The position numbers were made by a program, and so were the translations under genes. The notes under the pieces were generated by a model. It had not been told where the DNA came from, did no database searches, and saw nothing but the letters and a program-made list of their open reading frames with translations. Of a stretch of DNA of 64,000 nt, positions 25,802-54,312 are shown piece after piece. The stretch comes from Litoreibacter sp. (GTDB taxonomy: Bacteria > Pseudomonadota > Alphaproteobacteria > Rhodobacterales > Rhodobacteraceae). The DNA is taken from NCBI GenBank assembly GCA_026710325.1, contig JAPORH010000116.1:1-64000 (forward strand). Direction: 5' to 3'. Every line of letters begins with the position of its first letter. The stretch's first letter is position 1.

Positions 25802-26644
25802 TTAAAAAGGTGCGCGTTGGTGGTGCAGCCGGTAAGCGCGCGGCGTGGTTCCGTAGTGGCCGCGAAAAACACGATAGAAATGGCTTATATTTTCAATCCC
25901 ACATTGCGCGGCAATTTCGGGAATCGGGTCTTTGCTACGCGCCAAGCGATCCGCGGCAAATTCGCTTCTGACGCGATTGATATAGGCTGATGGCGTTAAG
26001 CCAAGCGCGCTCTTGCAGGCGCGGCACACATGTTCGTGGCTGCGCCCCGCCACAGCGATGAACCCAGGCGCGCCTTGCCGGAACACGGCCGGGTCGCGTG
26101 CGGCTTCGCATGCCTCGGCCAGCCATTGGGGCACTTTGTTGCCAAAAGAGCTGACAGGGGGGACGACCCGGTTGGCGAGTGTCAGCAAAAACTCATCCAA
26201 CCGCGCATGGCTGCGTTTGGCGTTGGCGAGCTCTTGGGCCACGTGAATGGCGCGCTCGACCCGTGGCCCATGCAACAAATGCGTCTCGGGCTTCAACCCG
26301 CCGGTATCAAAGAAACGGCTCCGAAACTCCTGCTGGTAGCGGGTTAGAAAATGCGCCGCAGTGTCCGCGCGAAACATGACATTGATGATGTCGCAGCCAA
26401 GTTTCGGGTCCGCGCGAAAGGCATGCGCATCCTGAGGGCGCATAAATAAAAGGTGGCCCGCGCGTAGCCTTTCCCGCGCACCATTGATCCAGTGATCCGC
26501 CTCGCCCTTTTCGACCAGAAATACTTCGAAATAGTCGTGATCATGCGCGTGTTCGGGCCATTTCCGCGCTAACGATTTGCGCGCAACATGGCAGGCTTCG
26601 TCCGGCCTCAAATAGCTTGAAATGTGGAATCGTTTGACCTGCAT
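25802..26644 (-). CDS. AraC family transcriptional regulator
   Basis: Cupin-like N-terminus (KWPEHAHDHDYFEVFLVEKGEADHWING) and C-terminal HTH (TPSAYINRVRSEFAADRLARSKDPIPEIAAQCGIENISHFYRVFRGHYGTTPRAYR). Confidence 0.9.
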   Translation of the reverse strand: MQVKRFHISSYLRPDEACHVARKSLARKWPEHAHDHDYFEVFLVEKGEADHWINGARERLRAGHLLFMRPQDAHAFRADPKLGCDIINVMFRADTAAHFLTRYQQEFRSRFFDTGGLKPETHLLHGPRVERAIHVAQELANAKRSHARLDEFLLTLANRVVPPVSSFGNKVPQWLAEACEAARDPAVFRQGAPGFIAVAGRSHEHVCRACKSALGLTPSAYINRVRSEFAADRLARSKDPIPEIAAQCGIENISHFYRVFRGHYGTTPRAYRLHHQRAPF

Positions 26645-26669
26645 GGCGCTAAGATAGGCAAATAAACCA

Positions 26670-26722
26670 GTCCAAAACCATCAGTAAATATCAATATAGC
26701 ATCAAAAAATGTCAATCTGGAC
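26670..26722. promoter_or_regulatory. phased TCA repeats flanked by GTCCA/TGGAC in the divergent araC/PhyH intergenic region
   Basis: TCA at 26681, 26691, 26702 and 26712 (10, 11, 10 bp spacing); GTCCA 26670-26674 and TGGAC 26718-26722. Confidence 0.45.
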
Positions 26723-26776
26723 ACATGCACGACCCTCAAGGCAACGCTAACGTATTGTGCGGGAGGATTAAATTTT

Positions 26777-27604
26777 ATGCTGTTTATGAATCAGGATTTG
26801 TCTTTCAAACCGGTTTTGAATGAGCGCCCCCATGTCCTGAACGCGGCGGATATCTCACGCTATAATCTTGAAGGGTTTTGCCAGCCGATCAACGTGTTTT
26901 CTCCGGCCGAAATTTCCGAGATACGCGCATATGTGAATAACCTCATCGCTGCCATGGGCGAGAAAGGCGGTTACGGCATCAATTGCTATCAGGCGCGGCT
27001 ATCAGGGCTGTACGATATCGCGACGAACCCTCGCATTCTCGACTGCGTCGAAGACCTGATCGGCCCGAACATCCTTTGCTGGGCCAGCGCGATCCTGTCG
27101 AAAAAACCGCATGATCCAAAGCGCGTGCCGTGGCACCAAGACGCCAGCTTTTGGATGCTGTCACCCGCGCGGACGGTGACTGTATGGCTTGCCATTGACG
27201 ATGCCGATGAGGCAAATTCGGCCATGCGGTTCATCCCGGGGACGCATAAATTGGGGCCCTTGGAGACCTCGACTCGCGATGATGGTGCCTCCGTTTTCCA
27301 TAAGGGAACAGCCGATGCTGATGCGCTCGGCGCGCCTTTCACCAACAGCTTGAAAGCAGGGCAAATCTCTCTCCATGCCGATATGCTGGTGCATGGCTCG
27401 CAACCCAACATCTCGGACCGCAGGCGCTGTGGGCTCACGCTGAGATATTGCCCGCCGGAGGTACGGATTATTGATGCGGATTGGGAGCGCGGGGTCGAAG
27501 CAATCGCCTGTCGCGGCAATCCCGGTGATTGGAGGACGCACCCGCGCCCAGACAACAACGATATTCTGGCAACCACGAGCCCCGTGGTCGTGGCAAATAA
27601 CTAG
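26777..27604 (+). CDS. phytanoyl-CoA dioxygenase (PhyH) family protein
   Basis: VPWHQDASFW (HxD), MRFIPGTHKLG, LVHGSQPNISDRRRCGLTLRYCP (distal His and Arg). Confidence 0.9.
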   Translation: MLFMNQDLSFKPVLNERPHVLNAADISRYNLEGFCQPINVFSPAEISEIRAYVNNLIAAMGEKGGYGINCYQARLSGLYDIATNPRILDCVEDLIGPNILCWASAILSKKPHDPKRVPWHQDASFWMLSPARTVTVWLAIDDADEANSAMRFIPGTHKLGPLETSTRDDGASVFHKGTADADALGAPFTNSLKAGQISLHADMLVHGSQPNISDRRRCGLTLRYCPPEVRIIDADWERGVEAIACRGNPGDWRTHPRPDNNDILATTSPVVVANN

Positions 27605-27613
27605 GGGGCGGTC

Positions 27614-28294
27614 GTGGAGATTACCTGGTACGGCCACGCGGCCTTCGGACTGACCTCACAAAACGGCCCAAGGCTGATTACGGATCCCTACACGCCCGAG
27701 GGCGTGGGCTATGCGCCTATCACAGACCCGGCCGATCTGGTGGTGATCTCCTCCGATGATGATAGCGCGCATTGCCGCGCTGACTTGATTGCTGGCGAGC
27801 CGGAGGTCATCAACGCGCTGCACGCCGCCCAAAACGGCGGCCACGCCACCGCAGCCGGTCTGCGCGTCGACGCAATCGAAGCCGCCGAGTGGAACCACCA
27901 CCCAGACCACGCCGTCCCCGGCCAAAACGGCATGTACCGCTGGGAGACGGATGGAATCAAATTCGCGCATATGGGCGATGTCGGAAACCCGCTAACCGAG
28001 GCCCAGCAGGATTTCTTCCAGGACACCGACGTGCTCTTCGCGCTGGCAGGCGGATATCTGACGATCCTGCTGCCCGATCTGATGGAAATGGTGCACCGCA
28101 CCAAGCCCAAACTCATTATCCCGATGCACTTTCGCACGCTGAGCTACCGGCCGCGCAACACGATGTGGATCGAGAGCTTTCTGCACTATTTCAAAGAAGA
28201 GGATGTCGATTTCGCCTGCAATCACACGGTGACATTGACAGCCCAAGACATTCCCGAACGCACACGTGTTCTTGTGATGGATTACCGGCGCTAA
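27614..28294 (+). CDS. MBL fold (UlaG-like) protein with degenerate HxHxDH motif
   Basis: MEITWYGHAAFGL, LITDPY, AHMGDVG, PKLIIPMHF; expected SHxHxDH is SSDDDSAH. Confidence 0.75.
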   Translation: MEITWYGHAAFGLTSQNGPRLITDPYTPEGVGYAPITDPADLVVISSDDDSAHCRADLIAGEPEVINALHAAQNGGHATAAGLRVDAIEAAEWNHHPDHAVPGQNGMYRWETDGIKFAHMGDVGNPLTEAQQDFFQDTDVLFALAGGYLTILLPDLMEMVHRTKPKLIIPMHFRTLSYRPRNTMWIESFLHYFKEEDVDFACNHTVTLTAQDIPERTRVLVMDYRR

Positions 28295-28375
28295 GGGAAC
28301 GCAACCCGGGCCGGCCAACCGGCTCCGGACAAAAAACGCCTTCAAGAATGGAGGCGCAACATAGGGAGAAACACC

Positions 28376-30106
28376 ATGCGATTGACCAAACTGGTCGCAA
28401 CCGCGTCGCTGATGGCTCTGACGGCCATGACCGGCGCTCAGGCCCAGGACGTGGCCCGCGAAGACACTGTGATCTTCGATCTTGACCGCACCATCAAAGA
28501 CCCCAGCAATTTCAACTGGTTAACCCCCGGCACCAAGCGCATGCATGGCGCGCATCAAACCATGTGGGAGCCGCTTTTCATTTTGAATTACGCCACCGGG
28601 AACATCGACCCTTGGCTCGCCACAGGTTTTGAAGCCAATGATACTTCGACGGAATTCACCATTTCCCTGCGTGAAGGCATCGAATGGTCGGACGGAGAGG
28701 CTTTCAACGCCGATGACGTGGTGTTCACAGTCAATCTGGCGCTGACTAATGAAGAGATTTCCTCGCGCGAAGCCTCCACCGTGCGTGCCCAGGTCGCTAG
28801 CATCGAGAAACTCGACGACCTGACCGTTAAAATGACGCTGAACGCCCCCAACCCGCGCTTCATTGTGGAGAATTTCGGCGTGCGGATTTTCGGCTCTTTC
28901 CTGATCATGCCGGAGCATATCTGGAACGGCGAGGACCCCGCGACCTTCGCCTTCAACCCGCCCATTGGCACCGGGCCCTACACTTTCACCTCCGCCACCA
29001 CTAACCGCGCGATCTGGGATCGCAACGATGATTGGTGGGGTGCCAAGACCGGCTTTATGGACCTGCCAGAGCCGCAGCACGTGATTTTCCTTGAATCGGG
29101 TGGCGCGGAAAGCCGGGCGCAGCTGATGGCCACCAACCAGATGGATGCGGCGCAAAACGTCTCCGTCGGCACGTTTGAGGCGATCCGGGCGCAAAACCCG
29201 GCCGTAACCGCATGGTATTCCGACTACCCATATGCCGCCGCAGACCCTTGCGCGCGCCAGTTGGAGATCAACACAACCATCGCACCCTGGGACGATCCAG
29301 CCATGCGCCGCGCGGTCAACCACATCATCGACCGCACTCAGATCGTGAATATCGCGACCGAAGGGGCAACCGTGCCGTCGCGCACGATGTTCGCGCAATA
29401 TGGCTCGATGGATCCGTTCATCAACGCGGTCGTGGATGCGGGCTTTGAGCTGGCTCCCACGGCAGATGTGGCGGCAGGCCAAGCGCTGATTGAGGCGGCG
29501 GGCTACGCGAAAGGCTCAGACGGGATTTATGAGAAAGACGGCGAAGACCTGAGCGTGAAAATTCACGTCAACTCCGCCTCGACCGAATATACCCGCACCA
29601 TCGACATGATCGTGGAGCAGCTTAATCGCGCAGGCGTCGCAGCCTCCTCCGTCCCGGTGGAGAACGGCGTATTCTGGGGGGAGGTTCTACCGTTTGGGTC
29701 CTATGAGATGAGCTACTCCTGGCTCTCCTGCGGCTCGGTCAATGAGCCCTGGGCCTCAATGGGACGTTATACGGTTAAGGACGTGGTCCCCGTGGGCGAG
29801 CGCAGCCCGGGCTTTAATAACACCTCCCGTTGGGATGGCCCCGCAGCCGCGGCCTATTCGGAAATTGTCGACAGCATGGCGGCGCTACCTTTGGGTGACA
29901 AGAGCATCCCCGGCAAAGTGGCAGATGCCTACCAGCATCTCGCAGCCGAAATGCCCTTCATCCCGTTGGTGCAGTCCTTCAAGCTTTTGCCAATGAACAC
30001 AACCTATTGGACCGGGTGGCCGACGGCTGACAACAATTACAACCATCCGTTCTTCTGGTGGAACTCCACCCACCAGATCATCCACAATCTCGAGAAAGCC
30101 AACTAA
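28376..30106 (+). CDS. ABC transporter substrate-binding protein (SBP_bac_5 / peptide-oligosaccharide type)
   Basis: Signal peptide, MHGAHQTMWEPLFILNYATGNIDPWLATGFE, LREGIEWSDGEAFNADDVVFTV, RRAVNHIIDRTQIV. Confidence 0.92.
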   Translation: MRLTKLVATASLMALTAMTGAQAQDVAREDTVIFDLDRTIKDPSNFNWLTPGTKRMHGAHQTMWEPLFILNYATGNIDPWLATGFEANDTSTEFTISLREGIEWSDGEAFNADDVVFTVNLALTNEEISSREASTVRAQVASIEKLDDLTVKMTLNAPNPRFIVENFGVRIFGSFLIMPEHIWNGEDPATFAFNPPIGTGPYTFTSATTNRAIWDRNDDWWGAKTGFMDLPEPQHVIFLESGGAESRAQLMATNQMDAAQNVSVGTFEAIRAQNPAVTAWYSDYPYAAADPCARQLEINTTIAPWDDPAMRRAVNHIIDRTQIVNIATEGATVPSRTMFAQYGSMDPFINAVVDAGFELAPTADVAAGQALIEAAGYAKGSDGIYEKDGEDLSVKIHVNSASTEYTRTIDMIVEQLNRAGVAASSVPVENGVFWGEVLPFGSYEMSYSWLSCGSVNEPWASMGRYTVKDVVPVGERSPGFNNTSRWDGPAAAAYSEIVDSMAALPLGDKSIPGKVADAYQHLAAEMPFIPLVQSFKLLPMNTTYWTGWPTADNNYNHPFFWWNSTHQIIHNLEKAN

Positions 30107-30118
30107 GGCTTCTCCTTC

Positions 30119-30143
30119 GTGGCGGCGCCCCGCGCGCCGCCAC
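30119..30143 (+). other. intercistronic hairpin after substrate-binding protein gene
   Basis: Perfect 10-bp inverted repeat GTGGCGGCGC-CCCGC-GCGCCGCCAC; no T tract. Confidence 0.65.
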
Positions 30144-30174
30144 ATACCCTCACGCCAGATCGGAGGAATGTCCC

Positions 30175-30942
30175 ATGTCGGACATCAAGGCGCATTTCGA
30201 AAACCACGGATTTTACCTCGCCAAAGGACTGTTCAAACCTGAGGAGGTTCAGGCGCTGGAAACAGATTTCGACCGTATTGTCGGCCAGCTGACGGCGAGC
30301 GGCGAGGCCATCGACGCCACTTGGGATGGCGGCGAGGCGCAGAAAATCGCCAGCCAGAATGACGTGATCCTGCACACGCATAACGTGCAGAAATACTCCC
30401 GCACTTGGCTAAACGCCTTCCTGAATGAACGGTTCCTGAGCGTGGTCGAACAAATTATCGGCCCCGACATCATACTCCATCATTCCAAGCTGTTCCAAAA
30501 ACCGTCGGAGAACGGTTCCCCCTTCCCTATGCATCAGGACTGGCCCTATTTCCCAACCGTGCAAGACAGCATGATCGCGGGCATCATCCACGTCTCGGAC
30601 GCCACGGATGAGATGGGCTGCCTGCGCATCTACCCGGGCTCGCACAAACTGGGCCGGGTCAAGGGCGCAGATGGTCGGCGGCAAAACGACTTGATCGACA
30701 GCTACCCGATTGAAGATGCAACAATCATCGAAGCCGAAGCCGGTGACGTCATCTTCTTCCATTACTTCACTTTGCACGGCTCCATGCCGAACCGCTCTGA
30801 TGCCACGCGCAAAACCGTGCTCTGTCAGCTCTATGCAGGGACCGACCGTATCGAAGACGGCAACACCCATCCCGACGAGCGGATGGTGCTGCGCGGCTGG
30901 AACCACCACATCAGCCGCGCCGCCGCTGGCCAGGCAGCATAA
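30175..30942 (+). CDS. phytanoyl-CoA dioxygenase (PhyH) family protein (second copy)
   Basis: FPMHQDWPYFP (HxD), CLRIYPGSHKLG, FTLHGSMPNRSDATRKTVLCQLY; SD GGAGGAA upstream of ATG 30175. Confidence 0.92.
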   Translation: MSDIKAHFENHGFYLAKGLFKPEEVQALETDFDRIVGQLTASGEAIDATWDGGEAQKIASQNDVILHTHNVQKYSRTWLNAFLNERFLSVVEQIIGPDIILHHSKLFQKPSENGSPFPMHQDWPYFPTVQDSMIAGIIHVSDATDEMGCLRIYPGSHKLGRVKGADGRRQNDLIDSYPIEDATIIEAEAGDVIFFHYFTLHGSMPNRSDATRKTVLCQLYAGTDRIEDGNTHPDERMVLRGWNHHISRAAAGQAA

Positions 30943-30953
30943 AGGGGCAAGAC

Positions 30954-31967
30954 ATGAGCACGATCCCCCGCGCCTATCTTCTCAACCGGTTGCTGACGCT
31001 GTTTCTGACCGTCTTCATCGCGGCCACGCTGATCTGGATCATCCCCCGCCTCAGCCCCGTTGACCCGGCGGAGATCATGCTGGGCCGCATGGCCGCAGGC
31101 GCTGGCGCAGTCGCGGATTCGGAGGCCATACTGGCGCAGCTCCGCCAAAATTTCGGGCTCGATGATCCGCTTTTCGTGCAATACCTCAAATACTTGTGGA
31201 ACACTGTTACCTTCAATTTCGGCCTCTCCACAGCCACTTTCCCGACACCCGTCTCCGCCCTGATCGCGCAAGCGCTACCTTGGACGCTCGGGCTTATGAT
31301 CTTGTCCCTGATCATCACCTTCTTCATCGGCAACCTCCTAGGCGCGCTGATGGTGTGGGAGAAGAGCCCGAAGCTTGTCCGCGTCGCGATCCCCGCCGCG
31401 ATGGTCTTCACCTCCATCCCGCCGATCCTGTCTGGGCTGCTGCTGATGTGGATCTTCGCGGCCAAGCTCCGCTGGTTCCCACTCACTGGCGCCTACGGTT
31501 TGACGGTCGAGCCCGGCTGGTCCTGGGATTTCGCCGTTTCCGTCATGCACCACGGCTTCCTGCCTGCACTCTCCATCGTGATCGTGACCTTCGGCTTCTG
31601 GGCGCTCGGCATGCGCGGGCTGATGATCACAGTGCAGGGAGAGGATTACGTGACGCTCGCCAAGGCCAAGGGCCTGCGCCCGCGCTACATCCTTTACAAA
31701 TACATGATCCGCAACGCGATCCTACCGCAGATCACTGCCTTCGCGCTGAAGGTCGGACTGCTTATCGCAGGCCAGGTCCTCGTCGAACGCATCTTCGCCT
31801 ATAACGGCATGGGCAAGCTGCTCTATGACGCGATCCTCGATCAGGACTTCCCCGTCATACAAGGGGTCAGCTTCGTCATTATCCTGATGACGGCGCTGTC
31901 GGTCTTCATCGTGGACCTGATCTATCCCTTCATTGACCCGCGCATCCGGCATGAGGTGACTTCATGA
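30954..31967 (+). CDS. ABC transporter permease (DppB-like)
   Basis: AYLLNRLLTLFLTVFIAATLIWIIPRLSPVDPAE; GEDYVTLAKAKGLRPRYILYKYMIRNAILPQITAFALKVG. Confidence 0.93.
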   Translation: MSTIPRAYLLNRLLTLFLTVFIAATLIWIIPRLSPVDPAEIMLGRMAAGAGAVADSEAILAQLRQNFGLDDPLFVQYLKYLWNTVTFNFGLSTATFPTPVSALIAQALPWTLGLMILSLIITFFIGNLLGALMVWEKSPKLVRVAIPAAMVFTSIPPILSGLLLMWIFAAKLRWFPLTGAYGLTVEPGWSWDFAVSVMHHGFLPALSIVIVTFGFWALGMRGLMITVQGEDYVTLAKAKGLRPRYILYKYMIRNAILPQITAFALKVGLLIAGQVLVERIFAYNGMGKLLYDAILDQDFPVIQGVSFVIILMTALSVFIVDLIYPFIDPRIRHEVTS

Positions 31968-32890
31968 GCGACATGCCCCTCACCCGCGCCGAGCGCAAAC
32001 GCCAGCGCCGCATCCGCCGCTTCGACAATCCATGGCTCAACCCCAAGCTCTTTTGGGGCGCGGGGCTGCTGCTCGCCATCATTGCCGTCGGCATCCTTGG
32101 GCGTTTGTTTTGGGACCCGGAGCTCGTCTTCGTGGGCTCCGGCATCCCCAAAATGCCGCCGCCCGGCTTTGAAAATCTGCGCGGCCAAAGCGGCACATTC
32201 GCCAACCCGCTCGGCACCGAGGGCTCCGGCCGCGACATGCTCGCGCTGATCATCATCGGCGCGCCGAACTCGCTCTATGTGGGACTCATGGCCTCGCTTA
32301 TAGGCATGTCCGTAGGCATTTTCCTCGGCTTCACCTCCGGCTTCGTGGGCGGGCGGACGGATGACGTGATCCGGGTTCTCTCCGACGTCATGATCACCAT
32401 CCCGCCTTTGCTGATCTTGGTGGTCTTTCAGTCGGCCTTCGGCGACGTCACACTCACGATGATGGCGCTGCTCATCGCAGGCTTTGTATGGCAGTCACCT
32501 ACGCGCCTCATACGCGCGCAAGTCCTGTCGATGAAGCAATCGGGTTATGTGCAAATGGCCCGCCTCTCCGGCGCATCCACATGGCACATCATGTTCAAAG
32601 AGATGCTGCCTAACCTGGTTCCCTACCTCTTCGGCTCCTTCATCGCAAATGTGACCACGTCCATCGTCACTGCCGTTGGCCTCGAAGTCCTGGGCCTCGG
32701 ACCACAGCGTATCCCCACCCTTGGCCGTACAATATATGAGGCGATCAACGCGGGCGCGCTGATCCAGAACCTCTGGTGGTGGTGGGGCATTCCGACACTA
32801 CTGCTCGCCGTTATGTTCATCGGGCTCTTGCTCATCAACCTCGGCCTTGATGAGGTCTCCAACCCCCGTCTGAGAAAGTTGAAACTATGA
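31964..32890 (+). CDS. ABC transporter permease (DppC-like)
   Basis: NPLGTEGSGRDMLALIIIGAPNSLYVGL; SGYVQMARLSGASTWHIMFKEMLPNLVPYL. Confidence 0.93.
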   Translation: MSDMPLTRAERKRQRRIRRFDNPWLNPKLFWGAGLLLAIIAVGILGRLFWDPELVFVGSGIPKMPPPGFENLRGQSGTFANPLGTEGSGRDMLALIIIGAPNSLYVGLMASLIGMSVGIFLGFTSGFVGGRTDDVIRVLSDVMITIPPLLILVVFQSAFGDVTLTMMALLIAGFVWQSPTRLIRAQVLSMKQSGYVQMARLSGASTWHIMFKEMLPNLVPYLFGSFIANVTTSIVTAVGLEVLGLGPQRIPTLGRTIYEAINAGALIQNLWWWWGIPTLLLAVMFIGLLLINLGLDEVSNPRLRKLKL

Positions 32891-34614
32891 GCGCGTTGTC
32901 CATCACCGACCTCTCTATCGACTTTCCGACGACCAAGGGGGTCGTCCACGCTGTGACCGGGCTCTCCCTAGCGGTCGCGCGTGGACGGCGCGTCGGCTTC
33001 ATCGGCGAAAGCGGGTCCGGCAAAACCACAACCGCGCTTGCTGTCATGCAAATGCTCGCCGAACCGGGCAAGGTTGCAGGCGGCTCGATTACGCTTGGCG
33101 AGACAGACATGCTGTCGCTGAATGAAGAAGAGATGCGTAAAGCCCGCCTCAGCCGCGTCAGCTACATCCCGCAAGGCGCGATGAATTCCCTCAACCCTAT
33201 CATGCGGATCGAAGACCAGCTTTGGGACGGCATAACCGCGCATGAGGGCACAACGGATCGGGAGCAACTGAAAGCCCGCTCCGACGAGGTGTTGGAAAGC
33301 GTGGGCATGCCTGCCCGCGTCGGCCAGCTCTACCCGCATGAGCTGTCGGGCGGCATGAAGCAACGGGTCTGCATCGCGCTCGGCGTGATCCTGACACCGG
33401 ACCTGATCATCGCCGACGAGCCCACCAGCGCGCTCGACGTTGTCACGCAGCGCCATGTGATGCAGACCTTGAAAGACGTGCAGGACAAGATCGGCGCAGG
33501 GCTGATCCTGATCGGCCATGACATGGGGCTGATGGCGCAATCCGTCGATGAGCTCGCCGTGCTGAAAGATGGCGTCCTGGTCGAGCATGGCGACTCAAGA
33601 CAAATCATCGAAAACCCGCAACACCCTTACACGCAGGAGCTGATCTCCTCCGTCCCGCTGGTCGGCGGCGATAGCTTTCTGGACGCCGAAGTCGGCGCGC
33701 CGCCCATCAACCGGGGCGAACCGGGCGTGCCGCTCCTGGAATTCAAATCCGTCTCCAAAACCTACGGCAATGTCACGGCCCTGCAGCCCATGTCCTTCGC
33801 GCTCGACGGGGAGGTACCGAAGATCATCTCCATCGTGGGCCAATCCGGCTCAGGCAAATCCACCATGGGCTCCCTCATGCTGGGCTTCAACCCGCCCTCC
33901 ACCGGTCAAGTGCTGTTCGAAGGGCAAGACATCGCCAAGATGAACGCCGCGCAATCGCTGGAGTTTCGCAAACAGGTGCAGGCCGTCTTCCAGGACCCTT
34001 ACGCTTGCTTCAACCCGTTTTACCGGGTCAATCACGCGCTGAAATTCCCGTTCAAGCAATTCGGCTATGCCACGTCGGAGGCGCAGGTGCAGGAGAAGAT
34101 GGAGGAAGCCTGCCGCGCCGTAGGCCTCGATCCGTCCCTCGTGCTGGGGCGCTACCCGCACCAACTGTCAGGCGGTCAGCGCCAGCGCCTGATCGTCGCG
34201 CGCGCGCTTATGCTCAGCCCAAAGCTCTTGATCGCCGACGAGCCAGTTTCGATGGTCGACGCATCCTTGCGCGCCACAATACTGAAAAACATCTACGACC
34301 TGAAAGACCGCTATGGCATCTCGATCCTCTACATCACCCATGATCTGGCCACGGCCTACCATGTCTCCGACTACGTGATCGTGCTCTATCAGGGCCATGT
34401 CGCCGAGGCCGGCCCGCCACAGGAGGTGATTGGCAACCCCAAACACGAATACACTCGCCTCTTGATCGACTCGATCCCTTGGCCCGATCTCGACCGGTCC
34501 TGGGGCACGCCGTCCACCGCTGCTGAGGACGCCGAACGCCTCGACCGCCTCGCGCGCGACAATAAGACCGAATTCCGCGGTTCCGTGTCCGGTTTTGACC
34601 TCGAGCTGTCGTAA
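32887..34614 (+). CDS. ABC transporter ATP-binding protein with two fused nucleotide-binding domains (DppD-DppF-like)
   Basis: Two Walker A motifs (GESGSGKTT, GQSGSGKST) and two signatures (LSGGMKQR, LSGGQRQR). Confidence 0.94.
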   Translation: MSALSITDLSIDFPTTKGVVHAVTGLSLAVARGRRVGFIGESGSGKTTTALAVMQMLAEPGKVAGGSITLGETDMLSLNEEEMRKARLSRVSYIPQGAMNSLNPIMRIEDQLWDGITAHEGTTDREQLKARSDEVLESVGMPARVGQLYPHELSGGMKQRVCIALGVILTPDLIIADEPTSALDVVTQRHVMQTLKDVQDKIGAGLILIGHDMGLMAQSVDELAVLKDGVLVEHGDSRQIIENPQHPYTQELISSVPLVGGDSFLDAEVGAPPINRGEPGVPLLEFKSVSKTYGNVTALQPMSFALDGEVPKIISIVGQSGSGKSTMGSLMLGFNPPSTGQVLFEGQDIAKMNAAQSLEFRKQVQAVFQDPYACFNPFYRVNHALKFPFKQFGYATSEAQVQEKMEEACRAVGLDPSLVLGRYPHQLSGGQRQRLIVARALMLSPKLLIADEPVSMVDASLRATILKNIYDLKDRYGISILYITHDLATAYHVSDYVIVLYQGHVAEAGPPQEVIGNPKHEYTRLLIDSIPWPDLDRSWGTPSTAAEDAERLDRLARDNKTEFRGSVSGFDLELS

Positions 34615-34617
34615 CAC

Positions 34618-37617
34618 ATGACCCATGACGCGCGTTTCACGGCGGAAAAGATCGCCAAACGGCTGGAGCTGATCCGCCCGCTGGTCTTTCGCAACAAGCA
34701 GCCTTTGCCCCCGTTCTGGATCCTACCGCTCAAAGACGCGATTGAGGAACCACCGCTCGACGCAGACCCGAGCACCTGGGACCGCGTCCCGCATAACAGC
34801 TATTGGGGCAAACCCGATCTGAACTTCCTCATGCGCTCCCATTTCACCGTGCCGAGCGATTGGGTCGGCAACCTCGCCCTGCACCTGCCTTTGGGAGAGG
34901 CCGGCGATATTTTCACCCATCCCGAGGGCCTGGTTTATATCGACGGCAAGCCGATTGCGTCGGCCGACCGCTACCACCACACCGTGCCCCTGCCTGATCA
35001 CGTCCATGACGGGCAGAACCACCAGATCGCGCTGCATGGTTGGACCGGGTTGTCCGGCTGGCCACCCGATCCAAACAACAACCAGCAACTTTTCATGGAG
35101 ACCTGCACGCTCGTCACCCGCGACCGGCCCACACAGTTTTTCCTCTGGCTCGCCAATGCCGCCCTCGGCACCGCGCGGGAGCTGCTGGACCGGCGCTCAG
35201 AGCGGCACAATATACTAACCGCGCTCGACCGCGCCTTTCTGACGCTCGATACGCGCGACCCTGTTGGGTCGGAGGCGTTTTACGAAAGCGTGCCCCACGC
35301 CCTTGAACAACTCCGCTCAGACCTCGACCAATCCGGTGCGCCGCAAGACGTGACGCTCCACGCCATTGGCCACGCGCATATGGATGTGGCCTATCTCTGG
35401 CCCGTGAGCCAGATGCGCAGGAAGGTGGCAAGAACCTGCTCCAACGCATTGAGATTGATGGAAGAATACCCGACCTTCCGCTTCTCCAACTCCCAAGCCG
35501 TGCTCTACGACTTCCTCGAAGAGGACTACCCGGAGATTTTCGAGCGTATCCGCATGGCGGTCGCCCGCGGCCAGTGGGAAGTCTTCGGCGGCATGTGGGT
35601 GGAGCCCGACGTCAACCTTGCAGGGGCCGAGGCGCTGGTGCGGCAGCTCGTCCTCGCCCGCCGCTATTTCCGCCGCAAATTTGGCGATGCGGAGACGCCT
35701 ATCCTCTGGCTCCCCGACACGTTCGGCTTCCCTTGGAGTCTACCGCAGCTGGCCGCCCAAGCTGGGATCAAATGGTTCTGCACCAACAAGATGAACTGGA
35801 ACCAATCCAACCGCATGCCGTCCTCGACCTTCTGGTGGCAGGGCATTGATGGGACGAAACTCCTCTCCCACGTGCTGACCACGCCGCGCGACGTGCAATA
35901 TCTGCCCTTCCCGACGAACTATAAAAGCGACCTCACCGCGCCGGAGGTGCTGGGCACATGGGAGCATTCCACCGCCAAGGACCGCATCCGCGACCTGCCC
36001 ATTTGTTTCGGCTACGGCGATGGCGGCGGCGGCCCGACCGAAGGGCTGATCCAGACCGCCAAAGCCTATGCGTCCATGCCCGGCATGCCTGCGCTGAAAA
36101 TGTCCACCGTCCGCGACGCTTTCGAGGCGATGGAGCCACAAGCAGAAGGTCTGCCCGTCTGGAATGACGAGCTCTACCTCGAAGGCCATCGCGGCGTGCT
36201 GACCTCCAACGGCTGGATCAAGCGCAAGAACCGCAAGGCCGAAATCGCGCTCCATGAAGCCGAGGCGCTCGCTGTCATCTTCGGTTTTGAGGCAGACCTG
36301 ACCAAAGCGTGGGAGCTGCTCTGCCTCAACCAGTTCCACGACATCATAACCGGCACTGCCATCCGCGACGTGTTCGAAGACGCTGCTAAGGACTATGACG
36401 CAATAGCCGCAGATATCGCGGACGTACTAGCCCCCATTCTGGAGGGCGCCGACGCCGTCACCAACACCTCCCCCTATCCCCAAGCTCCACTCGTCGAAGC
36501 GGACGGCACCTTCCACCAAATGCCTGAAATGGCTCCTTACGAAACGCTCTCGTTGGATGCCGCCCTTCCCGTCCGAGACACGCCAAGCACCACCCAATCC
36601 GGCTCTAGCTTCACACTAGAGAACGCCCAGATCCGTGCCATCATCAATCAAGCAGGCCAGATCACGGAGTTTTACGACAAGCGCGCCAAGCGGCAGGTCC
36701 TCTCAGGTCTTGGAAATGTGTTGCAAGCTTTTGAGGACCGCCCCCTCGTCTGGGACGCATGGGATATTGATCCGTTTTTCGAGGATAGGGCCGAGACGCT
36801 CGACGGCCCTGCCGAAGTTTCAATTTCCGAACAAGGCGCGCATCGCGCAGCGCTGACTGTCAAAAGACGTTACGGCTCCAGCACGATCACCCAAGTCATC
36901 CGTTTGGAGAATGGTTCGGCTCAGCTGGACTTCGAAACTGACGTCGATTGGCACGAAACCCATGTGCTGCTGAAGGTCGCATTCGAGATCAACGTCCTCG
37001 CCCCCCGCGCCACCTATGACATCCAATGGGGCCATATCGAGCGGCCCACGCATCGCAACACCAGTTGGGACGCAGCCAAGTTCGAAGTCTGCGCGCATCA
37101 ATGGGCCGACCTTTCAGATGGAAGCTACGGGGTCGGCCTGCTCAATGATTGCAAATACGGATACGACATTCGGGACAACACAATGCGCCTGTCTTTGATC
37201 AAATCCGCCACTATGCCCGATGTGGCTGCGGATCAGGGGGCACATCACTTCACCTACGCGCTTCTACCGCATCAGGGCGATTGGCGCGGCACGGTCGAAC
37301 GCGCGGCGGCAGCGCTGAACCATCTCGCGCGAGTCCATGGCGGGTTGGCGCGGGACCCGCTCGTCCGATGCGCCGCTCCAAATGTAGCGCTGGAGACCTT
37401 AAAGCCGTCTGACTTCCACAATGGTTTCGTTCTACGCCTCTCAGAAGCGCATCGCATCTACGGGCCCGTTCAAATCACCTTGCCTGACCTCGTCACCTCC
37501 GTCGCGCGCTGTAACCTGCTTGAGGATATCGAGGAGGAACTGCAGCTCGACGGTCGCATTCTGACCCTGACCCTCAAACCGTTCGAAATCGTCACCCTGC
37601 TCTGCCGAGTAGCCTAA
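34618..37617 (+). CDS. alpha-mannosidase, glycoside hydrolase family 38
   Basis: AIGHAHMDVAYLWP metal site, GGMWVEPDVNLAGAEALVRQLVLARRYFRRKFG, LWLPDTFGFPWSLPQLAAQAGIKWFCTNKMNWNQSNRMP, LCLNQFHDIITGTAIRDVFEDA. Confidence 0.94.
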   Translation: MTHDARFTAEKIAKRLELIRPLVFRNKQPLPPFWILPLKDAIEEPPLDADPSTWDRVPHNSYWGKPDLNFLMRSHFTVPSDWVGNLALHLPLGEAGDIFTHPEGLVYIDGKPIASADRYHHTVPLPDHVHDGQNHQIALHGWTGLSGWPPDPNNNQQLFMETCTLVTRDRPTQFFLWLANAALGTARELLDRRSERHNILTALDRAFLTLDTRDPVGSEAFYESVPHALEQLRSDLDQSGAPQDVTLHAIGHAHMDVAYLWPVSQMRRKVARTCSNALRLMEEYPTFRFSNSQAVLYDFLEEDYPEIFERIRMAVARGQWEVFGGMWVEPDVNLAGAEALVRQLVLARRYFRRKFGDAETPILWLPDTFGFPWSLPQLAAQAGIKWFCTNKMNWNQSNRMPSSTFWWQGIDGTKLLSHVLTTPRDVQYLPFPTNYKSDLTAPEVLGTWEHSTAKDRIRDLPICFGYGDGGGGPTEGLIQTAKAYASMPGMPALKMSTVRDAFEAMEPQAEGLPVWNDELYLEGHRGVLTSNGWIKRKNRKAEIALHEAEALAVIFGFEADLTKAWELLCLNQFHDIITGTAIRDVFEDAAKDYDAIAADIADVLAPILEGADAVTNTSPYPQAPLVEADGTFHQMPEMAPYETLSLDAALPVRDTPSTTQSGSSFTLENAQIRAIINQAGQITEFYDKRAKRQVLSGLGNVLQAFEDRPLVWDAWDIDPFFEDRAETLDGPAEVSISEQGAHRAALTVKRRYGSSTITQVIRLENGSAQLDFETDVDWHETHVLLKVAFEINVLAPRATYDIQWGHIERPTHRNTSWDAAKFEVCAHQWADLSDGSYGVGLLNDCKYGYDIRDNTMRLSLIKSATMPDVAADQGAHHFTYALLPHQGDWRGTVERAAAALNHLARVHGGLARDPLVRCAAPNVALETLKPSDFHNGFVLRLSEAHRIYGPVQITLPDLVTSVARCNLLEDIEEELQLDGRILTLTLKPFEIVTLLCRVA

Positions 37618-48807: not shown

Positions 48808-51800
48808 TCAGTCAGACTTGCCAAAACCACCGCCGCCGGGCGTTTTCATGATGAAACTATCGCCAGGTGACAGCTCGACCTGATCATTGCCTTCAAGGCG
48901 TTCGAACTCGCCATTGGCACGCTGCACGGCATTCTCACCAGTCGCCCCGGGCGCGCCGCCTTCAACACCATGCGGCGGCACCACACGGTGGGAGGTCAGA
49001 ACCGTCACAGTCATCGCCTCGTTAAATGTCAGCCGCCGAACGATGCCATCACCGCCATCAAACTGCCCGTCTCCGCCGGAGCCCGTGCGGATGGAAAACT
49101 CCTCTACCTCAACCGGGAACCGCGTCTCCAACACCTCCGGGTCGGTCATCCGCGTATTTGTCATATGGCTGTGCACCGCGCTGGTGCCGTCGAACCCGTC
49201 ACCGGCCCCTGTGCCCCCGCAAATCGTCTCATAATTCTGATAAACATCATTGCCGTAGACAAAGTTGTTCATCGTGCCTTGGCTGCCCGCAATCACGCCA
49301 AGCGCACCATAAAGCGCATCCGCGATGGATTGGCTCACTTCGGTATTTCCGGAAATCACGGCCGCAGGCGCTTTCGGGTTGATCATGGACCCTTCCGGCA
49401 CAATCAGTTCCAGCGGCTTCAGGCACCCCTCATTCATCGGGATATCGCGGCCCACAAGCGTTCGGAACACGTATAGGACCACCGCCCGGCAAATGGCCAT
49501 GGGCGCATTGTAGTTGTATTCGCTTTGCGGCGAGGTCCCGGTGAAATCAATCGTCGCGCAACGCTCCGCCTTGTTCACACGGATCGCGACCTCGATCCTC
49601 GCACCACTATCCATCGGGTAGCTGAACGCGCTGTCTTTCAGCACATCCAGAACCCGCCGCACACTTTCTTCGGAATTGTCCTGAACATGACCCATATAGG
49701 CATGGACCGTCTCAAGCCCGAATTGCCGCGTGATCTTTTGCAGCTCCGAAGCGCCCGTTGCATTGGCAGCAATTTGTGCGGCCAGATCGGCCATATTCTG
49801 GTCGACGTTGCGGCACGGGTATGTGCCTGAGGCCAGAAGCGCGCGGGTCTCTCCCTCCCGCAAAGCCCCTTGGTTCACGAGCAGGAAATTGTCGATCACA
49901 ACGCCTTCCTCCTCGATCACCCGGCTGTCGGGCGGCGCCGATCCCGGTGTTTTGCCGCCGATATCGGCGTGGTGCCCACGGGAGGCGACGGTGTAGATGA
50001 TGCGCTCACCGTCCTCATCAAACACCGGGGTAATCACCGTCACATCCGGCAAATGCGTGCCGCCGTTATAGGGGTTGTTCATCATGAAAACGTCGCCCGG
50101 ACGGATTTTGTCGTCATTCTCCCGCAACACGGTGCGCACGCTTTCCGACATGGAGCCCAGATGGACCGGCACATGCGGGGCGTTGGCGACCAGATCGCCA
50201 CGCTGATCAAAAATCGCGCAAGAGAAATCGAGCCGCTCCTTGATGTTCACCGAGTAAGCCGTATTGGCCAAGGTCGCCCCCATCTGCTCGGCGATGGACA
50301 TGAACAAGTTGTTGAACACCTCCAGCATCACCGGGTCGACCTGGGTGCCGATCGCCTCGACGCGCCTCAAGGGCACGATCCGTTCAAGGATCAGATTGCC
50401 ACCAGCCGCACAGGTCGCGCGCCAGCCAGGCTCGATCACATTGGTGCCCGTTGGCTCGGTCAGGATCGCGGGACCATCAACCGATGCCCCAGTGGCAAGG
50501 GTGTCCCGGTTGACCAAGGGCACGTTCCGCCATTCGCCTTCAAAACAGACCGAGACCTCAGTTGTCTCAGTGCTCGTCGCGCCCGGGTCGGGCATGCTCA
50601 CCGCTTCCCCCGTCCGGCCAATCGCTTCAACCACAAGAACGTCGATGATCAGATCGCTGGTGTCGGGTGCAAAGCCGAAGCACTGCATATGGGCATTCGC
50701 AAAATCAGACGCCATCTCAGACGCAGCTCCAAACGCCACCTCCAGGCTTTGTTGCGCGTCACGCGGACGGATTTGCGCGCGTTTCAGCACCTCAATGTCG
50801 CCAGCCGCGATCCCCTGATCCTGCACCTCTTGGCGCGCCACATCCGCCATCGCGTCCAAAGCCGCCCCGGCCCCGGCATCATCCAAGGCCCTTTCAAACT
50901 GCTGCTCCCTCATCGCGCGCACGTCGGCAAGCCCCATCCCAAAGGCCGACAAGACGCCCGCAAACGGATGGATAAAAATGCGCTCCATGCCCAAAGCGTC
51001 AGCCACAAGACAAGCATGTTGCCCGCCCGCGCCACCGAAGCAATTCATCGTGTATTTGGTCACGTCATAGCCGCGCTGCACGCTGATTTTCTTGATGGCG
51101 TTGGCCATATTTTCAACCGCGATGCGCAGGAACCCTTCGGCAAGCTCCTCTGGCGATTTGCCGTCGCCGATCTCGCTGGCCAAAGCCTCAAACTTTTCGC
51201 GCACAACCTGCTCGTCAAACGGCAGATCCGCGTTCGGGCCGAAAACATGCGGGAAATGATCAGGGTTCAACTTACCCAAAAGCACGTTGCAATCCGTCAC
51301 GGTCAGTGGCCCGCCCCGCCGGTAAGCCGCAGGCCCCGGGTTTGCGCCCGCGCTTTCAGGGCCCACCTGCATCCGGCCATCGCGATAGGACAGGATCGAG
51401 CCGCCCCCCGCCGCGACCGTATGGATCGACATCATTGGGGCGCGCATCCGCACGCCCGCAACCTCCGTCTCGAAAGAACGTTCGAACTCCCCCGCGTAAT
51501 GGCACACATCGGTGGAGGTCCCGCCCATGTCAAAGCCGATCAGCTTCTCATAACCCAGCTCACCGGCGGAGCGGACCATCCCAACCACGCCCCCTGCCGG
51601 ACCCGAGAGGATCGCATCGCGCCCCTGAAACAGCCGCGCATCAGTCAGCCCGCCATTGGATTGCATGAACATCAACCGCTCGCACCCGCCTTTATGCGCG
51701 CCAAGCGCATCCGCCACTTGATCTACATAGCGCCGCAGGATCGGGGAGAGGTAGGCATCCACCACCGCCGTATCACCGCGCCCGACCAGCTTGATCAGTG

Positions 51801-52383
51801 GGCTGACCTCATGGCTGAGCGAGACTTGGCTGAAGCCGATCTCTCGCGCCATCTCGCCCAATCGCTTTTCGTGGCCCGGGAACCGGTAGCTATGCATTAG
51901 CGCAATCGCGATGGAGCGGTACCCTTCGGCATAGGCGCGCGACAACGCTTGAAATGCGGCAGCCTCGTTCAGCGGGGTGAGGACGGCACCTTCTGCATCC
52001 AGTCGTTCTTCAACCTCTACGGCCTCGTCATAGAGCAGCTCCGGCAGCTCGATATTCAGATCAAACAGCTTCGGGCGGTTCTGATAACCGATGCGAAGAA
52101 GGTCCTTCATGCCCTTGGTAATGAACAGAATTGTCCGCTCGCCCTTGCGTTCCAAAAGCGCGTTGGTGGCAACAGTCGTCCCCATCTTAACCGCTTCGAT
52201 CATCCCGGCAGGGACCGGCGCATCCGCCTCCAGGCCCAAAAGCTCCCGAATGCCGTGGACGGCCGCGTCCTTGTAGACCTCCGGGTTCTCCGACAGAAGC
52301 TTATGCGTCTTCAGATCGCCCTCAGGCGTCTTGGCCACGATGTCGGTGAACGTGCCGCCGCGATCTACCCAAAATTGCCACAT
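48808..52383 (-). CDS. 5-oxoprolinase/hydantoinase family protein, fused HyuA-HyuB-type domains
   Basis: MWQFWVDRGGTFTDIVAKTPEGDLKTHKLLSENPE; FDMGGTSTDVCHY; C-terminal HyuB: MLEVFNNLFMSIAEQMGATLANTAYSVNIKERLDFSCAIFD. Confidence 0.95.
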   Translation of the reverse strand: MWQFWVDRGGTFTDIVAKTPEGDLKTHKLLSENPEVYKDAAVHGIRELLGLEADAPVPAGMIEAVKMGTTVATNALLERKGERTILFITKGMKDLLRIGYQNRPKLFDLNIELPELLYDEAVEVEERLDAEGAVLTPLNEAAAFQALSRAYAEGYRSIAIALMHSYRFPGHEKRLGEMAREIGFSQVSLSHEVSPLIKLVGRGDTAVVDAYLSPILRRYVDQVADALGAHKGGCERLMFMQSNGGLTDARLFQGRDAILSGPAGGVVGMVRSAGELGYEKLIGFDMGGTSTDVCHYAGEFERSFETEVAGVRMRAPMMSIHTVAAGGGSILSYRDGRMQVGPESAGANPGPAAYRRGGPLTVTDCNVLLGKLNPDHFPHVFGPNADLPFDEQVVREKFEALASEIGDGKSPEELAEGFLRIAVENMANAIKKISVQRGYDVTKYTMNCFGGAGGQHACLVADALGMERIFIHPFAGVLSAFGMGLADVRAMREQQFERALDDAGAGAALDAMADVARQEVQDQGIAAGDIEVLKRAQIRPRDAQQSLEVAFGAASEMASDFANAHMQCFGFAPDTSDLIIDVLVVEAIGRTGEAVSMPDPGATSTETTEVSVCFEGEWRNVPLVNRDTLATGASVDGPAILTEPTGTNVIEPGWRATCAAGGNLILERIVPLRRVEAIGTQVDPVMLEVFNNLFMSIAEQMGATLANTAYSVNIKERLDFSCAIFDQRGDLVANAPHVPVHLGSMSESVRTVLRENDDKIRPGDVFMMNNPYNGGTHLPDVTVITPVFDEDGERIIYTVASRGHHADIGGKTPGSAPPDSRVIEEEGVVIDNFLLVNQGALREGETRALLASGTYPCRNVDQNMADLAAQIAANATGASELQKITRQFGLETVHAYMGHVQDNSEESVRRVLDVLKDSAFSYPMDSGARIEVAIRVNKAERCATIDFTGTSPQSEYNYNAPMAICRAVVLYVFRTLVGRDIPMNEGCLKPLELIVPEGSMINPKAPAAVISGNTEVSQSIADALYGALGVIAGSQGTMNNFVYGNDVYQNYETICGGTGAGDGFDGTSAVHSHMTNTRMTDPEVLETRFPVEVEEFSIRTGSGGDGQFDGGDGIVRRLTFNEAMTVTVLTSHRVVPPHGVEGGAPGATGENAVQRANGEFERLEGNDQVELSPGDSFIMKTPGGGGFGKSD

Positions 52384-52452
52384 GAGACGGTTCTCCTTCG
52401 TTTGCGGCCCGCGGACCGCATCATTTCGTATCTGTTATTGAGGGGTCAGTGG

Positions 52453-53736
52453 CTACTCAAGCGCCTTAGGTAGCCAGAGCGCGATATCGGGAAAAGCTAT
52501 CAAAGCGAAAGCCATGGCCAGCATAGTCAGGCAATAGGGCAAAGCGCCGAGCATCACCTCATTCAGGTTTCCGGATTTCCGCGCCCCCTGCACCACGTAA
52601 AGGTTGAGCCCCACGGGCGGGGTGATCAGCGCCATCTCGATCAGCACGATCATCAGGATGCCAAACCAGATCACATCATAGCCCTGCGCCAAAACCATCG
52701 GCACGATGATCGGGATCGTCACGACCATCAGCGACAAGGTCTCGATGAAGAAGCCCAGCACGATGTAGATCACCACCACGACCATGATAAAGCCGAGCGG
52801 GGTCAGGCCCAGCCCTTCCAAAAATGTCGTCAGCTCGCGCCCCAACCCGGCGGAGGACAGCGTGAAATTAAGGAAAGATGCGCCGATGATGATGAGCATG
52901 ATCATCGAGGTGACTTTGATGGTCCCCAACAAGCTCTCCCGCATCATCGTCACACTAACACCGCCAAAGGCCAGCGCAATCAGCAGCGCGCCTGCCACGC
53001 CAACAGCCGCCGCCTCCGTGGGCGTCGCCCACCCGCGATAGATGGAGCCCACGATCAGCGCAAAGAGGATCAGGATCGGGATCAGGTCCACAAGCGCACG
53101 CGCCATTTGCAGGAACGGAAAGACCCGCCGGTTGCCGCCCAGCTCGGGCCTGATGGCGCAGATGATTGCCGTGATAATCAGAAACGCCAGCGCCAGAGCC
53201 AGCCCCGGAATAAGCCCGGCCAGAAACAGCTGCGGGATCGAGGATTGGGTCAGAAACCCGTAAACGATCAGGTTGATCGAGGGCGGGATCATGATGCCCA
53301 GCGTGCCGCCTGCCGCAATCGCGCCCGAGAAGAGCTTCGGGTCATAGCCCAGCTTCTCCGCCTGCGGCATGGCCACGGTGGCAACCGTCGCCGCTGTCGC
53401 CACCGAGGAGCCGGAGGTGGCGGAAAACATCGTGGCCGTCGCGACATTGGCATGCACCAACCCGCCCGGCAGCCAGCTGACCCAGCGATCCAGCGCCGCA
53501 TAGGTGCGCGTCGCCACGCCGGATCGCACAAGAATTTCGCCCAAGAGCACAAAGAAAGGGATCGCGATCAATGTGGCCGAGCTGGAGGAGGACCAGACCA
53601 TATTTCCAAGCGCCCGGGTCAGCGGGAAATTTGAAAAGAACTGATCTACGCCGAAGCCCAGAAGGAACAAGACGATGCCCACGGGGATAGACAGCGCCAA
53701 CAGCGCCAAAAGCCCGGCTGAAACATAGGTAATCAT
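52453..53736 (-). CDS. TRAP transporter large permease subunit (DctM-like)
   Basis: Multi-TM; MFSATSGSSVATAATVATVAMPQAEKLGYDPKLFSGAIAAGGTLGIMIPPSINLIVYG. Confidence 0.95.
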   Translation of the reverse strand: MITYVSAGLLALLALSIPVGIVLFLLGFGVDQFFSNFPLTRALGNMVWSSSSSATLIAIPFFVLLGEILVRSGVATRTYAALDRWVSWLPGGLVHANVATATMFSATSGSSVATAATVATVAMPQAEKLGYDPKLFSGAIAAGGTLGIMIPPSINLIVYGFLTQSSIPQLFLAGLIPGLALALAFLIITAIICAIRPELGGNRRVFPFLQMARALVDLIPILILFALIVGSIYRGWATPTEAAAVGVAGALLIALAFGGVSVTMMRESLLGTIKVTSMIMLIIIGASFLNFTLSSAGLGRELTTFLEGLGLTPLGFIMVVVVIYIVLGFFIETLSLMVVTIPIIVPMVLAQGYDVIWFGILMIVLIEMALITPPVGLNLYVVQGARKSGNLNEVMLGALPYCLTMLAMAFALIAFPDIALWLPKALE

Positions 53737-54281
53737 TTCAGGCTGTCCTGCTCTGCAAATGCGCCGATAAAAGGCTCAGTTTCATCCGCGCGGCCTCTTA
53801 ACAAAAGGCCAATCGCGGCGAGCGTCACTAGGCAAGACATCACCGCAAACCAGACCCAGCCCGCGAACCACGGGACCTGCACCCAGGCGAGCGGCGTGGC
53901 CAGTGGCGTGTTGGCGCGGCTGCCGTTCTCAATCGCGCGCTCCACAACGGGCCAGCATTTGATGGCAATCGTGACGACAACAGCCGACATGATGACCATC
54001 GAGAAGACGTCGAACAATGCCCGTAGCGTGCCTTGCGTACGCGATCTCAAAAGATCGATACGGATATGGCCCAACTCCAACAGCGCATAGGCCATCCCCC
54101 AGGAGCTGACCAAGGCCATCGCATACCCCGCAAGTTCCTCTGAGCCGCCAAAGGACGCATGGACCTGGCGCAGCGCAATATCGGCCACCACGAAGGCAGC
54201 CATGGCCAAGAGCCCCACCCCCACGATCATAGCGATCGCCTGGTTGAGCCTCCTGAGCCTATTGATCAATGCCAGTTCCAT
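53733..54281 (-). CDS. TRAP transporter small permease subunit (DctQ-like)
   Basis: Four TM segments; overlaps dctM-like gene by 4 bp. Confidence 0.9.
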   Translation of the reverse strand: MELALINRLRRLNQAIAMIVGVGLLAMAAFVVADIALRQVHASFGGSEELAGYAMALVSSWGMAYALLELGHIRIDLLRSRTQGTLRALFDVFSMVIMSAVVVTIAIKCWPVVERAIENGSRANTPLATPLAWVQVPWFAGWVWFAVMSCLVTLAAIGLLLRGRADETEPFIGAFAEQDSLK

Positions 54282-54312
54282 ATCTCTCGCGTCCCTTGGG
54301 CTTTGCTCGGTC

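Follow-up and report, generated by a model that had tools for sequence, protein, structure and literature searches.

A nine-gene unit in a 64,000-nucleotide stretch of DNA from Litoreibacter sp. (Rhodobacteraceae; assembly GCA_026710325.1, contig JAPORH010000116.1, positions 1 to 64,000; hereafter the window) is real and conserved among relatives. It consists of a gene for an AraC-family regulator and, divergent from it, eight co-directional genes encoding two PhyH-family Fe(II)/2-oxoglutarate oxygenases (PhyH1 and PhyH2), a metallo-beta-lactamase (MBL) fold protein, an ATP-binding cassette (ABC) importer with a solute-binding protein (SBP) of the SBP_bac_5 family, and a glycoside hydrolase of family GH38. 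It is about as likely as not that the unit works as a self-contained operon under local regulation for the use of O-methylated alpha-manno-oligosaccharides.

A conserved operon with an exchangeable oxygenase

The order AraC, then divergently PhyH1-MBL-SBP-slot-permease-permease-ATPase-GH38, recurs in 51 related loci from ∼28 Rhodobacteraceae genera and Roseibium, far above what chance would give. These are the loci (referred to by L numbers) that have both SBP and GH38, pooled from a survey of the family, a search at the level of the order, which revealed further loci, and named genomes of Nereida, Jannaschia, Roseicyclus, Cognatishimia, and Roseibium. Of 397 genomes surveyed in the family, 32 harbor a relative of the MBL gene and 24 of these, the window's own not counted, carry the ordered unit. 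A set of 337 genomes spread over the class contained no unit beyond that of the window.

All 50 comparable loci have the AraC gene. Among the 50 loci that extend to their positions, 49 hold an intact PhyH1 and 49 an intact MBL. GH38 is retained wherever the end of the operon is visible; in L112, it falls past the end of the contig. One genome, G004, has no PhyH1 in the operon; a 60% identical copy (L171 8866-10641) is located outside it, divergent from an AraC-family gene of its own and upstream of a glucose/sorbosone dehydrogenase-type gene. The ATPase is split into two separate genes in L024, L036, L037, and L103. Across the loci, the permeases average 83% and 82% identity, the SBP 78%, PhyH1 and MBL 70%, and GH38 57%. 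As the importer is better conserved than GH38, the imported compound seems more constant across loci than the hydrolase. In two loci, AraC and PhyH1 are separated by a gene for a TIM-barrel protein resembling xylose isomerase (L128 2076-2921, assigned by Pfam; L129 2037-2885, assigned by a common homology cluster). The genes that follow GH38 in the window (HxlR, GST-like) were rejected as members of the unit, as the genes at this position are not shared among loci.

The slot between the SBP and permease genes holds PhyH2 in 13 of the 51 loci, a cytochrome P450 in two, and nothing in 36; PhyH2 and P450 never occur together. PhyH2 orthologues number nine in the 397 genomes, all inside this operon. 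The P450-bearing operons, L139 and L156, occupy distant positions on the operon tree. Outside the slot, every gene of L156 is 89-99% identical to its counterpart in the PhyH2-bearing sister operon, L159, so that the pair shows a clean exchange of oxygenases. Whichever enzyme fills it, the slot presumably calls for the same oxidation or an equivalent one. A preliminary description of this DNA, made from the sequence alone, expected the PhyH genes to stay with the transporter and GH38 in relatives, which holds for PhyH1. Its treatment of the two PhyH genes as equal parts is not borne out: PhyH1 belongs to the core, and equal core membership was rejected because PhyH2 is an accessory gene in a swappable slot.

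The nearest solved relatives of the slot P450 are 6g5o and 6g5q (1.5e-85; next 7e-36), which are probably the carbohydrate-active P450 of Formosa agariphila that acts on 6-O-methyl-galactose. On the Microscilla plasmid pSD15, a 38% relative of the P450 is followed by genes for a 2Fe-2S ferredoxin and a FAD-dependent oxidoreductase, with Zn-alcohol dehydrogenase, alpha/beta hydrolase, beta-agarase, and sulfatase genes in the same neighborhood. This is the gene set of the loci for P450-dependent oxidative demethylation of 6-O-methyl-D-galactose in porphyran use by marine Bacteroidota (PMC10033563), and the neighborhood thus supports the P450 clade independently of the identity of 6g5o. The slot P450 is placed in a clade of sugar O-demethylating P450s acting on 6-O-methyl-galactose. 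In Catenovulum isolated from algae, a P450 gene is grouped with ferredoxin and reductase genes. Among relatives in Rhodobacteraceae, one is found with GH31, short-chain dehydrogenase, and sugar ABC genes (L141). In L145 (7084-12577), a same-clade P450 converges with GH38 and sugar ABC genes, with an AraC gene also present; this distinct kind of locus likewise links the clade to an alpha-mannosidase-family enzyme.

The operon resembles the Bacteroidota loci (PMC10033563) in placing a predicted oxidative O-demethylation of a marine sugar within a glycan-use locus, and relatives of their P450 occupy the slot of two operons. It differs in its reliance mostly on Fe(II)/2-oxoglutarate oxygenases, in its alpha-mannosidase and ABC importer, and in the absence of ferredoxin and reductase genes from the operon. 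The operon of the window, which contains no P450, does not qualify as a P450-type 6-O-methyl-galactose demethylation locus.

The direct repeat RTCAA-N16-RTCAA, with a fixed 21-bp period, is present in 45 of 47 AraC-PhyH1 intergenic regions and is a putative operator, as expected for a direct-repeat AraC-type site. Across 25 whole genomes, an extended form of the pattern has ∼1 match per genome, at the operon, and a reversed control pattern has one match in total. Because the repeat is essentially confined to the operon, the AraC regulator looks dedicated to it; a larger AraC regulon was rejected on the same search.

Table 1. Features of the operon in the window
Feature	Positions	Strand	Basis
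AraC-family regulator, divergent	25802..26644	(-)	Pfam AraC_binding, HTH_18
Putative AraC operator, 21-bp direct repeat RTCAA-N16-RTCAA	26687..26715	(+)	Pattern in intergenic regions
PhyH1, Fe(II)/2-oxoglutarate oxygenase, core	26777..27604	(+)	Pfam PhyH 5.8e-27
MBL-fold hydrolase (Lactamase_B_3), altered metal motif SSDDDxxH	27614..28294	(+)	Pfam 1.4e-40
SBP_bac_5 solute-binding protein, signal peptide, oligosaccharide-binding subgroup	28376..30106	(+)	Pfam, profile search
PhyH2, Fe(II)/2-oxoglutarate oxygenase, accessory slot	30175..30942	(+)	Pfam PhyH 3.3e-35
ABC permease, DppB/OppB type (BPD_transp_1)	30954..31967	(+)	Pfam
ABC permease, DppC/OppC type (BPD_transp_1)	31964..32890	(+)	Pfam
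Fused double ABC ATPase	32887..34614	(+)	Two ABC_tran stretches, Pfam
GH38 alpha-mannosidase, Ams1/MAN2C1 type, no signal peptide seen	34618..37617	(+)	Pfam GH38 N, middle, C

The open reading frames and Pfam domains agree with the gene layout proposed in the preliminary description. For PhyH2, a start at 30058 is possible within the frame; 30175 was chosen as the start that aligns with the orthologues. The window also contains a second SBP_bac_5 gene (59542-61152) followed by permease-sized genes, and a fused hydantoinase/oxoprolinase gene adjoining a tripartite ATP-independent periplasmic (TRAP) transporter with DctM and DctP (48808-55338, (-) strand), a locus that likely serves the uptake of a lactam or hydantoin.

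Predicted roles of the importer and enzymes

In a profile search, the SBP is nearest to a mannoside-binding protein (4pfu, 4e-52) and a chito-oligosaccharide binder (1zty, 2e-46), well before the nickel binder NikA (7e-29) and the peptide binder DppA (4e-17). This ranking places it in an oligosaccharide-binding subgroup in which glycan binders, mannoside first, are its closest relatives. The earlier proposal of a glycoside importer is supported, a peptide importer was rejected on the same scores, and the predicted uptake of small alpha-mannosides is well supported. The Thermotoga mannoside SBP (4pfu/5hm4) and the chito-oligosaccharide SBP (1zty) share the subgroup, from which the ligand here is assigned by homology alone. 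To our knowledge, no oxygenases have been described with either of these SBPs.

The GH38 protein matches Ams1 at 4e-133 and retains the metal His/Asp residues, the nucleophile Asp, and the N, middle, and C domains. Its HAHMD, WLPDTFGF, and QFHDIITGTAI motifs align to HCHID, WLPDTFGY, and QFHDCLPGSSI of Ams1, confirming the metal and WLPDTFGF motifs picked out in advance, and its nearest solved structures are of the Ams1/MAN2C1 type rather than MngB-like. Hydrolysis of alpha-mannosides by GH38 is thus a well-supported prediction. The cytosolic Ams1/MAN2C1-type enzymes have the same domain make-up and catalytic residues; in contrast with them, GH38 here shares its operon with oxygenases and an SBP_bac_5 importer. 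Two Chloroflexota loci with the order SBP-permease-permease-ATPase-ATPase-GH38 (L036, L037) harbor a homologous importer (SBP 54%) and GH38 (46-47%). They differ in that no PhyH or MBL relative was found beside them and a GntR/LacI-like regulator replaces AraC; they are possibly an older form of the unit. Direct reading of the sequences reveals a signal peptide at the start of the SBP and none in PhyH1, MBL, PhyH2, or GH38, and hence these four enzymes are most likely located in the cytoplasm.

The Pfam PhyH scores of 95.8 (PhyH1) and 122.8 bits (PhyH2) are above the cut-off of 22. The iron and 2-oxoglutarate residues of PhyH1 are H120-x-D122, H206, and R217. The HQD motif, the distal His, and the 2-oxoglutarate Arg are invariant in an alignment of 14 PhyH1 and 5 PhyH2 sequences, in keeping with the HxD and distal His/Arg first noted in the two window proteins. 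The model of PhyH1 (predicted local distance difference test, pLDDT, 87) is nearest in structure to ThoJ and SyrB2. PHYHD1 tops the fold list of PhyH2 at ∼17% identity, a ranking given little weight since the AlphaFold model is weak (pLDDT 60); sequence matches of PhyH2 to PHYHD1 are no better than those to other PhyH enzymes. A 38% relative of PhyH2 in Paenibacillus adjoins AraC and carbohydrate ABC genes.

Members of the PhyH family, including bacterial FJS and PHYHD1, were described in 2025 to demethylate 2'-O-methyl nucleosides with 2-oxoglutarate and release of formaldehyde, an activity widespread in PF05721 (PMC12709175). As these enzymes demethylate 2'-O-methyl ribose, sugar O-demethylation lies within known PhyH chemistry. 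PHYHD1 and FJS share the family and the HxD...H triad with PhyH1 and PhyH2 and remove a sugar O-methyl group as formaldehyde. They differ in acting on ribose in nucleosides, whereas the genomic context here points to mannosides, and sequence identity is low.

The altered metal site of the MBL protein

The first metal motif of the MBL family, HxHxDH, has lost its first two His residues in this protein and reads SSxxDxxH; the canonical, UlaG-like motif is therefore absent. The remaining metal-site residues are the Asp and last His of this motif, the Asp of HMGD, and the His of PMH; H(H)PxH, HMGD, and IPMHFRT are retained. Every close orthologue and most of the distant relatives (33-46%) keep SSxxDxxH, a pattern that suggests a metal site that is altered and constrained by selection rather than decayed. 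A pseudogene was rejected because the replacement motif is conserved. The nearest solved structure is TM0207 (7e-24).

The MBL gene often lies 3-4 bases from PhyH1. Outside the operon, most loci with MBL relatives have an oxidizing enzyme as their common factor. MBL relatives (57-61%) adjoin molybdenum (Mo)-hydroxylase genes of the CoxL/CoxM type or XdhC/MobA genes in L125, L127, L162, and L163, with a Peripla_BP_6 ABC gene as well in L127, L162, and L163. In L168 (13690-15700, stored coordinates), an MBL relative (53%) is immediately followed by a P450 of the slot clade (53%), so that MBL is paired with this type of oxygenase a second time. L168 is a sugar-acid type locus with a PfkB kinase, sugar ABC genes, a DHDPS-family aldolase, and an aldehyde dehydrogenase, and it contains neither GH38 nor PhyH. 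In L161, the MBL relative adjoins a PfkB kinase and a sugar ABC gene. The MBL protein may be an auxiliary hydrolase that acts on an oxidized product, such as a lactone or ester intermediate.

Methyl-capped mannosides and other possible substrates

Terminal 3-O- and 3,6-di-O-methyl mannose on Chlorella oligomannose glycans block jack bean alpha-mannosidase, and 6-O-methyl mannose is reported for Porphyridium and Chlamydomonas (PMC6344472); molluscs carry both 3-O- and 6-O-methyl mannose (PMC8699351). An alpha-mannosidase together with one or two O-demethylases closely fits the problem posed by methyl-blocked oligomannose. In the proposed pathway, the importer would bring small alpha-mannosides into the cell, and in the cytoplasm PhyH1, joined in some strains by PhyH2 or the P450, would hydroxylate the O-methyl caps, which would be lost as formaldehyde. 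The uncapped ends would then pass to the Ams1-type GH38, whose family and intact catalytic residues predict release of mannose, and the formaldehyde would enter the glutathione-dependent pathway, for which S-(hydroxymethyl)glutathione dehydrogenase and S-formylglutathione hydrolase genes stand ∼2 kb apart in the genome. The slot enzyme would probably act on another methyl group, perhaps that at O-6 because the related P450s act on 6-O-methyl-galactose; PhyH1 might, speculatively, serve the commoner position, perhaps O-3. The MBL protein might hydrolyze a lactone or ester formed on the way. Demethylation by the oxygenases is itself about as likely as not. Somewhat short of this, though possible, is the proposal that PhyH1 and PhyH2 form a new class of Fe(II)/2-oxoglutarate hexose O-demethylases, uncapping the terminal mannose of algal and mollusc glycans without a P450 and interchangeable with one in the slot.

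Several observations weigh against the proposed pathway. The nearest structures of PhyH1 (ThoJ, SyrB2, GriE, proline hydroxylase) are peptide and amino-acid enzymes, not sugar enzymes, although in this modeled comparison the fold neighbors neither support nor exclude a sugar substrate. Neither PhyH2 nor P450 is present in 36 of the 51 operons, MBL is reduced to a remnant in L146, and the P450 exchange indicates a common oxidation that is not necessarily demethylation. No ferredoxin or reductase genes were found inside the P450-bearing operons L139 and L156. The formaldehyde genes suffice to handle formaldehyde, but such genes are to be expected in many bacteria and cannot tell the readings apart, and a type I mannose-6-phosphate isomerase (PF01238) was not found in the genome. 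A sulfatase gene inserted between MBL and SBP in L112 (4649-6127, (-) strand) hints that this strain meets sulfated substrates, and the decoration may thus include groups besides methyl.

The same import and GH38 steps could serve a substrate on which the oxygenases act at a feature other than O-methyl, such as the aglycone, a deoxy or amino-sugar position, or another ether or ester. This seems rather unlikely, and the P450 of the sugar O-demethylase clade that twice fills the slot speaks against it; the breadth of PhyH chemistry, the structural nearness of PhyH1 to hydroxylases of non-sugars, and the L112 insertion, which makes other decorations possible, are in its favor, and MBL relatives beside Mo-hydroxylase genes hint at a general oxidize-then-hydrolyze chemistry. 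It is doubtful that PhyH1 oxidizes the sugar itself, for example at C1, with MBL as a lactonase and GH38 freeing the sugar. UlaG, from the wider MBL superfamily, is a lactonase, and this pathway would suit the close spacing of PhyH1 and MBL as well as the neighbors of MBL relatives in L161 and L168, which include a sugar kinase, sugar ABC genes, an aldolase, and a dehydrogenase. However, PhyH1 and MBL have been lost from the operon separately (L103, L146), the operon lacks a dehydratase or aldolase, and no evidence was found for anomeric oxidation by a PhyH enzyme.

Two further alternatives change the substrate altogether. Peptides, glycopeptides, or amino-acid derivatives could be imported and hydroxylated with GH38 in a secondary role, given the peptide binders within the SBP_bac_5 family and the resemblance of PhyH1 to ThoJ, GriE, and proline hydroxylase; the far greater nearness of the SBP to oligosaccharide than to peptide binders and the retention of GH38 make this very improbable. 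The chance is slimmer still that the unit takes up mannosylglycerate (digeneaside), as suggested in the preliminary description, or another small solute, with GH38 as an MngB-type hydrolase. GH38 family membership and a weak match to the NCBIfam MngB model point that way, yet the match of 64.5 bits lies below the equivalog cut-off of 1138, on which MngB was rejected, the nearest solved structures are of the Ams1/MAN2C1 type, and the oxygenases would be left unexplained. The broader idea of oxidative trimming of a decorated alpha-mannoside stands insofar as import, GH38, and oxygenases belong to one unit, and its O-methyl version gains independent support from the P450/PhyH2 exchange and the published PhyH O-demethylation of ribose (PMC12709175).

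P450-based oxidative demethylation of a methyl sugar before its use is already known; a 2-oxoglutarate counterpart, coupled to GH38 and an SBP_bac_5 importer, appears to be new. No description of this gene set, or of PhyH with a mannosidase in Roseobacter, was found in the literature searched, of which coverage was partial. Algal and animal glycans commonly carry O-methylated sugars, which resist glycosidases, and the one known oxidative route, that of the P450, serves one sugar. The exchange of PhyH2 and P450 in near-identical operons makes the proposed demethylation of methyl-capped mannosides directly testable. If true, a partner-free 2-oxoglutarate route would explain the access of Rhodobacteraceae to methyl-capped oligomannose, release additional formaldehyde as algal glycans are turned over, and provide enzymes for glycan editing.

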